Source: Helianthus annuus (lineage: Eukaryota; Streptophyta; Magnoliopsida; Asterales; Asteraceae). From it: a stretch of 64,000 nt of DNA. Shown one piece after another: positions 61,429 to 63,033 of the stretch (within the stretch, counting starts at the first letter, position 1; every line of letters starts with the position of its first letter). The notes beneath the pieces are model-generated. The model had not been told where the DNA came from. It made no database searches and saw only the letters and a program-made list of their open reading frames with translations. Where the stretch lies: assembly GCF_002127325.2 (NCBI RefSeq), contig NC_035441.2:53306020-53370019 (forward strand). Reading direction: 5' to 3'. The translations under genes and the position numbers were made by a program.

Positions 61429-63033
61429 CTAGAATGGTGGTGGTGGTGGAGGATAATGTAGGCGGCGAAAGAGAAGCCAATCCTCCTCCAAGGCCTGCTG
61501 GGTGCGGATCACGGATGCAATCTGCTGCTCTAGGATCGAAAGTCGAGCAACAATGTCAGGAGGAAATGATCGAAAAGGCTGAAATGACGAAGATGTCTGA
61601 CCAAGATATGGACCAAAAGACAACTGAGCTCTCTCGAGCTCCTGCAAACGCTGAGAATGGGAATCATGCTGGTGTACAAATGACATCAAAAGATCCTCAA
61701 TAGTATGGCCCAAATGAAATGGGTGGTATGGATCTGTGGGTGGCATGGGTGAGGAAGAGGACCAAAGTAATGGCGTGCTGGTAAGATCGATAGGTGCAAC
61801 AGAAGATGGGATGGGTGCTATCTGAGGCATGACAGGTAATGGCATCGGTACATGGCCAAATGGATGGGCGGAAGAGCCCTCTCCAGGCCCCGCTGGAGGT
61901 ATGACAGAAGGAATCTGAAACGAGAACTCAGGATGGTGAGCATCAGTGCGGTGAGGAGGAAGCGGCGGAACATCCTCGTCAGCCGGTATCCAACCGTGCT
62001 GAGCCTCCTCGTCAGGGGGATCCATGTGCTCTGCAAACAGAGCATGCTCGGGCTCAATAGGTAAGGGATCAACAGGAGCTAAAACAGGATCAACGTGAGC
62101 AACAACAGGATCAATATGATCGACATGAGGGTCAACTGGAATGTCAGCGATCAGAGGGTCAACAAGAGGATCAACAACATGGTCAGCATCTAACAAAGGA
62201 ATATCATCAACAGGAACATCGCCAAGTGGCTGACCCACCAAAATAGGATCAACAGGAACATCAGCATGCGCCAAACCATGCTCATGTGCGGGATCGAAAG
62301 CAGCGGCCTGCTCTGGAGCTACTGCAGGCTCGGGATCGTCAAACGCCATATCGAAGTCAAAGTCCGGATCGATAGGATCAAAAGGGTCGGCAGGGTCAAC
62401 GGGGTCCTCTACAGGCTGGTCCATATGAACGAACTTAATATCACGGTCTGGATCGAATCCAGGAGGAAATACAGGGTCAGAATCCTCGATATCGTCATGC
62501 TCAAAAACAAAGCTCGGCATAGGGGCGGCAGATGACGCCTGGTCAGGATCCGAGTCATGAACGAAAAGCTGCGTGCTCGCCACATGTGATGGAGCAGATG
62601 CCACAGACTCAAAGGAGTCTGGGGCTGGAGAATGAACAGGCGTGTCTCCGACAGGAGCACCGGCGATCATCAAAAGACCGCCAGCGGGCAAAAGAGCTGG
62701 GTCAGGAACCTCGTCCTCGTATAGCTCATCATCGAAAAGATCAATATCGCCACCAGCCTCGGCATCAAGCATAAGCTCATAAGCTGGGTAGGATGCAAGA
62801 GGAATCGGGGCGGGAATCACAGCGAGAGGGAGATCCGCAGCAGGACCACCAACGATGGGCTCATCGACGTCGTCAGGTAGTGCGAACGGCTGAAAGTCGT
62901 CGTCGTCTGTACTGGTATGATCCGAGGTGTGCACCTCGTGCTCTGATGACATAACCTCGTCTGACTCCATGGGTCGGGGTCCAGTAGTGTCCGAATCTCC
63001 GGTATCTGAGGTATCCATGAGTCTGTAATACAA
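61429..63033 (-). CDS. Extra 534-codon acidic Asp/Pro-rich ORF upstream of gag in element 4
   Basis: Same strand as gag-pol, between the 5' LTR leader and gag. Possible starts MYYRLMDTSDTG or, six codons on, MDTSDTGDSDTT. The N-terminal 130 residues are Asp/Glu/Ser-rich (TSTDDDDFQPF, LFDDELYEDEVPDP); residues about 170-330 are a low-complexity array of DP/VDP dipeptides (VDPADPFDPIDPDFDFDM; HVDPVLAPVDPLPIEPEH); the C-terminal part has a Pro/Ser linker, then two coiled-coil-like segments (HSQRLQELERAQLSF; IVARLSILEQQIASVIRTQQ) and ends YPPPPPPF. No membrane helix, zinc motif or known domain. Codon use and the uninterrupted 1.6 kb argue for selection or youth. Function unknown; extra ORFs in LTR elements have been linked to Gag assistance, env-like or regulatory roles, but nothing here proves one. 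Confidence 0.75.
   Translation of the reverse strand: MYYRLMDTSDTGDSDTTGPRPMESDEVMSSEHEVHTSDHTSTDDDDFQPFALPDDVDEPIVGGPAADLPLAVIPAPIPLASYPAYELMLDAEAGGDIDLFDDELYEDEVPDPALLPAGGLLMIAGAPVGDTPVHSPAPDSFESVASAPSHVASTQLFVHDSDPDQASSAAPMPSFVFEHDDIEDSDPVFPPGFDPDRDIKFVHMDQPVEDPVDPADPFDPIDPDFDFDMAFDDPEPAVAPEQAAAFDPAHEHGLAHADVPVDPILVGQPLGDVPVDDIPLLDADHVVDPLVDPLIADIPVDPHVDHIDPVVAHVDPVLAPVDPLPIEPEHALFAEHMDPPDEEAQHGWIPADEDVPPLPPHRTDAHHPEFSFQIPSVIPPAGPGEGSSAHPFGHVPMPLPVMPQIAPIPSSVAPIDLTSTPLLWSSSSPMPPTDPYHPFHLGHTIEDLLMSFVHQHDSHSQRLQELERAQLSFGPYLGQTSSSFQPFRSFPPDIVARLSILEQQIASVIRTQQALEEDWLLFRRLHYPPPPPPF

Follow-up and report, generated by a model that had tools for sequence, protein, structure and literature searches.

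A putative accessory gene upstream of gag, nearly free of the dinucleotide ApA, in a chromovirus-like retrotransposon of sunflower

The element and its additional open reading frame

The window analysed here is a stretch of 64,000 nucleotides of the sunflower genome (Helianthus annuus, assembly GCF_002127325.2, contig NC_035441.2, forward-strand positions 53,306,020 to 53,370,019). It contains a chromovirus-like long terminal repeat (LTR) retrotransposon, whose sense strand is the minus strand and which carries an additional open reading frame (ORF), here named ORF1, upstream of gag. The open frame spans 534 codons (63033..61429) and starts with TTG; its first ATG lies at 63018, which gives a likely protein of 529 amino acids ending in PPPPPPF before a TAG stop. 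As an earlier reading of the letters alone (the sequence-only reading) had stated, the frame is long, uninterrupted and on the same strand as gag-pol, between a primer binding site (PBS, 63466..63455), which we take to be of initiator tRNA-Met type, and the gag ATG at 61030. The remaining five frames of 61429..63033 contain 12 to 41 stops each, and when 60701-63470 was shuffled 1000 times by a Markov model, the longest open run of the six frames averaged 129 amino acids, with a maximum of 249. The features of the element are as follows, with the basis of each in brackets.

63470..64000, minus strand: inner portion of the 5' LTR, the remainder lying beyond the window (sequence)
63455..63466, minus strand: primer binding site TGGTATCAGAGC (sequence)
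63019..63030, minus strand: candidate splice-acceptor-like site TATTACAG/ACTC, 4 nt upstream of the ORF1 ATG (inferred from sequence)
61364..63079, minus strand: sense-strand stretch with a single AA, at 62436, spanning ORF1 and about 60 nt on each side (dinucleotide scan)
61429..63018, minus strand: ORF1, a 5' additional ORF for an acidic protein of 529 amino acids, ATG at 63018 and TAG at 61431..61429 (frame, shuffles, substitution rates)
61432..61701, minus strand: C-terminal module, residues 440-529, with predicted helices and a polyproline end (AlphaFold2, alignment)
61031..61428, minus strand: AA-poor spacer between ORF1 and gag (AA counts)
60880..61030, minus strand: gag exon 1, MAPRRQPQPMP...NPTH (sequence)
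60791..60879, minus strand: phase-1 gag intron of 89 nt, GTAACC...GTGCAG (precisely lost in 4 of 43 copies)
56340..60790, minus strand: gag-pol exon 2 with gag, protease, reverse transcriptase, RNase H, integrase and a chromodomain-like tail (sequence)
56306..56319, minus strand: polypurine tract TAACGGGGGGAGAA (sequence)
52932..56305, minus strand: 3' LTR (99.25% identity to the 5' LTR over the 533 bp of it inside the window)
52793..52930, minus strand: 3' end of the 5' additional ORF of a second element (element 2), a 45-residue tail interrupted by insertion of the ORF1 element (sequence; accessible part of PMC11728184)

The ORF1 protein is strongly acidic and has stretches rich in DP and VDP as well as the polyproline end, as the sequence-only reading had described; its net charge is -90. 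Its failure to recognise a domain was borne out by Pfam, which gave no match at E<=1; this includes the plant mobile domain, Athila ORF-1 and Transposase_28, the domains of the extra ORFs of Ogre, Athila and Retand elements. AlphaFold2, run with 35 sequences, predicted helices at residues 440-466, 469-473 and 487-521 (10-residue block means of 52-88), where a coiled-coil-like C-terminus had been suspected. Nearly all of the protein outside these helices has a predicted local distance difference test (pLDDT) score below 50, and the model has a mean of 44 and a predicted template modelling (pTM) score of 0.28. We regard the protein as probably disordered except for its C-terminal helices, low model confidence being what disorder would give. 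Its composition is unusual: all 31 glutamate codons are GAG and all 19 glutamine codons CAG, with one lysine codon and no asparagine. Similarly, 107 family proteins of 440-620 amino acids have a median of 1 lysine and 2 asparagines (largest sum of the two, 21) and 13 arginines.

ApA exclusion and purifying selection among ORF1 copies

Dinucleotide counts revealed that ORF1 is almost devoid of AA (ApA in RNA) on its sense strand, a finding that, like the gag intron, lies outside the sequence-only reading. The window copy has 1 AA in 1590 nt, against 41.8 expected for the same protein at gag-pol codon usage (minimum of 2000 draws, 27), so that this codon usage is rejected as the cause. The single AA, at 62436, is private to the window copy and missing from the other 27 copies of its subfamily. 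Elsewhere in the window, no AA-free or TT-free run on the plus strand exceeds 220 nt. The loss is strand-specific, since sense TT in ORF1 stands at 1.08 of expectation, and the rarity of AA extends to all codon phases and contexts, inside codons as well as across codon boundaries. The spacer between ORF1 and gag is AA-poor too, the leader is mildly low and gag is normal.

We compared 63 sunflower copies of ORF1 in three subfamilies: g1 (L001-L028), g2 (L029-L043) and g3 (L044-L063). The genome was searched with three subfamily queries, of which a loose first pass gave 12058, 12907 and 14525 candidates, 81 being scored for each query. Subfamily g1 consists of the best 8 ORF1 matches and 20 picked down the ranked matches, g2 of the best 15 and g3 of the best 20; no copy was dropped, and stops and gaps were masked. 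The copies contain 0-2 (g1), 1-9 (g2) and 2-12 (g3) AA each, against 54-58 expected from base composition. GAG outnumbers GAA by 893:1, 486:1 and 551:16 in g1, g2 and g3, respectively, and third-base A before a codon starting with A occurs in 0 of 1662 cases in g1 (15.3% before other codons), 10 of 926 in g2 and 31 of 1383 in g3. The majority glutamate codons are identical between subfamilies (21/21, 16/16 and 19/19), whereas aspartate codons differ about half the time. When the codons of three copies were shuffled, no word proved more depleted than AA in two of these copies, L001 and L029.

The AA sites that do occur are mostly seen in a single copy (6/6 in g1, 33/36 in g2 and 83/97 in g3). 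Sites with AA in at least half of the copies number 0, 1 and 1, and those of g2 (15/15) and g3 (19/20) are the same asparagine codon, in NGWI. Private changes from GAG to GAA (9/1916) and from CAG to CAA (8/994) compare with 18/2152 for control codons (TTG, GTG, CTG, GGG and NCG), and changes from GAN to AAN (29/5773) with 36/5600 for GTN, GCN and GGN. In these counts private mutations to AA do arise, roughly 0.6-0.8 times as often as the changes they are compared with, a modest deficit. Mutation supplies AA and few AA sites are shared; we therefore infer that selection removes AA, acting on ORF1 at the RNA level as well as on the protein. The exclusion of ApA goes beyond what mutation alone explains. 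RNA folding, considered as another cause, was rejected: 14 of 15 windows lie within 1.5 standard deviations of codon shuffles, and one lies at -3.1.

Selection on the protein was measured as the ratio of nonsynonymous to synonymous substitution rates (dN/dS; NG86, sum of dN over sum of dS). Within subfamilies, dN/dS was 0.338 in g1 (28 copies), 0.281 in g2 (15) and 0.209 in g3 (20); between subfamilies it was 0.117 (g1-g2), 0.223 (g1-g3) and 0.190 (g2-g3), at median dS of 1.7-2.1, near saturation. Gag exon 2 of the same loci gave 0.140 in g1 and 0.107 in g2. The AA rule alone does not explain the low dN, because, of the 4806 single changes that the window frame allows, no more than 584 would give rise to an AA. 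The sequence-only reading had proposed that ORF1 may be a recurrent component of a lineage, and had named the search for other open copies and dN/dS across copies as checks: the ratios lie far below 1, and 73 of the 80 best-scoring near-full-length ORF1 matches, the window copy counted, are free of stops (7 have one). Among the decayed copies of the sample, 31 of 35 stops are TAG. Many of these replace CAG codons (12 private cases), which is the outcome that C to T mutation at methylated CHG sites would give.

Copies were also chosen by gag. Among the 70 best of 138 gag matches, 34 have a listed ORF1 neighbour, and of the other 36 we sequence-checked five, which contained the whole ORF1 segment in four cases and part of it in one. 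Two of these five have an open ORF1 (residues 1-522 and 1-523; dN/dS against the window copy of 0.449 and 0.411), two are frameshifted and one retains mainly the last 163 codons. To judge from these comparisons, ORF1 is a regular, constrained part of a chromovirus-like lineage, under weaker constraint than gag.

Splicing, relatives and neighbouring elements

Removal of the gag intron joins NPTH to GCTFKQF in frame. Its GT and AG ends are preserved in all 39 of the 43 g1 and g2 loci that have it, and the other four (L005, L006, L019 and L038) lack exactly the intron. Among seven g3 loci viewed, L046 and L057 read through without it, and 31 of 138 gag matches start at residue 3 or 4, as two sequenced intron-less copies do there (counted by eye). 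Because the intron is precisely missing in several copies, spliced RNA of the element has been reverse-transcribed repeatedly. All six sequenced intron-less copies, which were chosen by ORF1, keep ORF1. An acceptor-like AG stands shortly before the first ORF1 ATG in 39 of the 43 g1 and g2 loci; in the other four the first ATG found lies upstream. A listed downstream gag match was found for 32 of 40 leader matches, 31 of them at 2353-2566 nt and one at 10878. Between PBS and ORF1, leader repeats (GTCTGGGAGGCTGGGA... / TCTAGTGGGACTAGG) lie at 63100-63330, and their copy number apparently varies among loci.

A protein search with ORF1 found at least 186 relatives at E<=0.001. Among the 120 listed, 117 are from Helianthus (annuus, debilis and anomalus) and three are ENA contigs, 1.5-2.1 kb long, that encode ORF1. 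Two further searches, for which the C-terminal region of more distantly related members served as query, listed 97 and 93 relatives; Helianthus accounts for 94 and 91 of these, and ENA contigs of the same set for the other three and two. Viral contigs gave no pattern match to the family. Among the relatives listed, and at the search sensitivity used, the ORF1 family thus appears to occur only in Helianthus. Near-full-length members, 34 in number, align with the window protein along its whole length at 44-94% identity to it, and in this 35-sequence alignment the C-terminal module and polyproline end are well preserved. In public sunflower gene sets, pieces of ORF1 carry the names calphotin-like, WNK2-like kinase, NPC2 sterol transport protein, proline-rich protein 36-like and extensin-like (entries P0003, P0010, P0017, P0053 and P0109 among them).

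Tekay-type chromoviruses with an extra ORF on the 5' side are a known kind, and a sunflower example is already in print, so that the premise of the sequence-only reading, that Tekay-like elements normally lack one, is out of date. According to the accessible part of that report, the 5' additional ORF (5'aORF) of sunflower Tekay group 2 (Tekay 13-2; Kazancev et al. 2024, PMC11728184) encodes 402 amino acids and is present in 500 of 523 copies. It resembles ORF1 in host, position and strand, in its proline-rich, mostly disordered product with an alpha-helix near the C-terminus and in its presence in most copies. It differs in its basic nuclear-signal tail, ORF1 being acidic, nearly lysine-free, 529 residues long and nearly free of AA. 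The C-terminal signal of the group 2 type (RKSHRGFLKGLANLLKGKK) was not found in 149 ORF1 family proteins. Since groups 1 and 3 are described there as having no 5'aORF (PMC11728184), the ORF1 family seems to lie outside the published set. The grass Tekay 5'aORFs (maize Tekay, sorghum Sb7, rice Retrosat-2, RIRE3/8), as far as the same source covers them, are likewise sense ORFs before gag with biased composition and disorder, and those of maize and sorghum share the long helix near the C-terminus; set against ORF1 by description only, they differ in a reported helix/strand fold, weakly like a double-stranded RNA-binding protein in maize and sorghum (PMC11728184).

ORF1 also has the properties of the eORF-5'F class (Neumann et al. 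2019, PMC6317226): it lies in sense orientation between PBS and gag, is at least 250 codons long and has no known domain, and most copies of the family carry it on gag-match counts. As described in the accessible part of that source, this class is positional and unites many unrelated proteins, and exclusion of AA goes unmentioned there. The gag intron recalls the partial splicing of Ogre elements (PMC6317226, accessible part), in which an intron of a plant LTR element is likewise spliced in part of the RNA only; unlike that of Ogre, it is 89 nt long and lies near the gag start. The suppression of CpG and UpA in RNA viruses, in the portions consulted (PMC6892864, PMC5659819), is similar in that dinucleotides are lost beyond coding need; there, other dinucleotides are affected genome-wide, whereas in ORF1 the loss concerns ApA and is nearly total, in one segment and on one strand. 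Literature searches, mostly without subscription papers, gave no match showing the ORF1 family or AA exclusion. To our knowledge, no gene has been described with a constraint comparable to this nearly complete loss of ApA.

The ORF1 element has 74% identity to element 1 of the window; for element 2, compared in two parts, the values are 55% and 67%. Its gag-pol tail LVKVRWNARHGPEFTWEREDRMKEKYPHLF, at the integrase C-terminus, where the Tekay clade has a type II chromodomain, resembles the tails of both, with no Pfam chromodomain at E<=0.01. The sequence-only reading had noted that element 2 keeps the tail of an ORF in the same position. This tail, at 52930..52793, is indeed there, but it is unrelated to ORF1: when the window was searched with the profile of 35 sequences, ORF1 alone was found, the next E being 3.5. 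It ends in RKSNRGFLKGLANLLKGRKKRDH, and 17 of 19 residues match the C-terminal nuclear signal of the sunflower Tekay group 2 5'aORF in the accessible part of its description (PMC11728184); it has 22 AA in 139 nt, against 19.5 expected. Membership of ORF1 in the family of element 2 and Tekay group 2 is rejected, given the missing profile similarity and signal, in a comparison that covers the last 45 residues of that family (the element 2 tail). ORF1 therefore looks like a second, independent family beside the group 2 5'aORF.

Here (52793-52930) the 5' extra ORF of element 2 is broken by an insertion, and the inserted element has an unrelated 5' extra ORF of its own. A further, nested plus-strand element (43591-51809), inserted at the gag start of element 2, parts the additional ORF of that element from its gag-pol (43605..39016). 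The nested element has a PBS-like TGGCGCCGCTGCCGGGG and LTRs at 43591-45495 and about 49428-51809 that are about 99% alike, the second with an extra insert of ~470 bp. Another chromovirus-like element (16961-25688, plus strand) has a gag region split over frames and is probably young, because its 2153-bp direct repeats are 99.9% identical.

Competing explanations and implications

The best explanation of the data as a whole, to which we assign a probability of about 0.55, combines a gene for an accessory protein, maintained by purifying selection as the sequences show, with probable further selection against ApA in its RNA. The wider reading concerns a protein-coding segment of 1.6-1.7 kb whose sense strand selection has purged of ApA almost to zero, at synonymous sites, codon boundaries, in amino-acid content and in part of the spacer. 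It would imply that plants have a process, so far unrecognised, by which ApA (or UpU on the opposite strand) is read in a defined RNA region, and we hold this to be nearly, though not quite, an even call.

Several points weigh against these interpretations. The low dN within subfamilies is due in part to the choice of most copies by ORF1 protein similarity, and NG86 is crude at the composition of ORF1. The rates of private mutations to AA are compared as raw counts. Another g2 site has AA in 7 of 15 copies, just below half, and 13 further g3 sites are common to a minority of copies; in the shuffled g3 copy (L046), 9 AA compare with 14.7 expected and several other words are more depleted. Gag-pol has 377 AA on the same strand and the same full-length RNA. 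Relatives were found only where exact five-residue words are in common, and Tekay as the clade of the ORF1 element is a presumption based on its neighbours. Branch-like CTGAC/CTGAT and acceptor-like TGCAG/TACAG show no clear depletion in three copies relative to base-frequency expectation; donor-like AGGT, GTGAG and GTATG are low there, but merely 1-4 are expected. Avoidance of splice signals beyond AA is hence unsupported by motif counts in these copies. No splicing-out of ORF1 in retrocopies was seen: none of the 32 leader-gag pairs lacks the ORF1 segment. Finally, a set of expressed sunflower elements contained no Tekay element in the accessible part of its report (PMC7730604).

As to mechanism, the acceptor-like AG before the ORF1 ATG suggests that ORF1 has its own spliced RNA. 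ORF1 would be made from this RNA, in which the leader is spliced to the acceptor-like site, and gag would come from another RNA form. If so, the AA-poor segment coincides with the RNA portion upstream of gag, and the lack of AA may keep this promoter-proximal segment free of A-rich RNA-processing signals. Such signals are polyadenylation upstream elements, GAA-type exonic enhancers, GTAA donors and TAAY branch points. This joint proposal of a separate spliced RNA and of shielding from A-rich signals is possible, though doubtful.

We favour protection from A-rich processing signals; its main rival is a host factor of RNA surveillance or decay. Such a factor would sense ApA, or else UU in antisense or double-stranded RNA, in this segment, and the lineage would escape it by losing nearly every AA. 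The rarity of AA in all codon phases and contexts fits a dinucleotide sensor better than longer motifs, and the strand specificity is also on its side; however, the 377 AA of gag-pol would limit such a sensor to ORF1-bearing RNA, and we know of no plant factor sensing ApA. We consider this explanation improbable. Still further behind, and very improbable, stands loss of AA as a by-product of protein needs, with a protein poor in lysine and asparagine, such as a lysine desert through which ubiquitylation is avoided. Proteins with lysine deserts form an acknowledged class in the accessible part of the literature (PMC10169902), and the family medians given above, with arginine retained, would suit one. 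As the whole cause it is rejected, since the exclusion also covers GAA, CAA and A|A across codon boundaries, where the protein is unaffected; the loss of lysine is better explained by ApA exclusion than by selection at the protein level. A local mutational bias or low-complexity relic without selection is scarcely credible and, as mutation bias alone, rejected: the DP/VDP-rich parts suggest a repeat origin and private AA changes are somewhat rarer than comparable ones, yet this deficit is at most ~twofold, with majority-held AA sites almost nil at dS of about 1.7-2.1.

For the protein, our tentative candidate function, favoured in view of the charge of -90, is that of a disordered polyanion that forms oligomers through its C-terminal helices and whose partner would most likely be the basic Gag/RNA complex. 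Close behind ranks a nuclear factor, in itself doubtful, whose acidic-aromatic segments would do the binding, for instance in transcriptional activation or anti-silencing. The stretches DDFQPFALP, DIDLFDDE and FDFDMAFDD are largely conserved, and 34 windows of 39 residues pass a charge/aromatic rule, against 0 in gag-pol; but of 500 shuffles of residues 1-430, 21% reach the same level, so that this activation heuristic was rejected as not above shuffles, and the published basic nuclear signal was not found in the family. A captured host gene, another suggestion of the sequence-only reading, has a very small chance of being right: gene models do name members calphotin-like, WNK2-like or proline-rich protein 36-like, but these names lie on members of the same repetitive family, the listed named relatives are all Helianthus members of it, no host relative is among the matches listed and Pfam finds nothing.

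Extra genes before gag are widespread in plant retrotransposons; in the case of ORF1, purifying selection can be measured, and the lineage is a repeated one in a crop whose genome is sequenced. Since the ORF1 element adjoins a second, unrelated family of 5' extra ORFs, this slot was occupied on two or more occasions, and a common need is the likely reason. The kinase, extensin and calphotin names given to pieces of ORF1 in gene sets could be corrected, and the exact loss of the gag intron is a natural record of spliced retrotransposon RNA being reverse-transcribed. If the proposed ApA-reading process is real, the element would be adapted to it.
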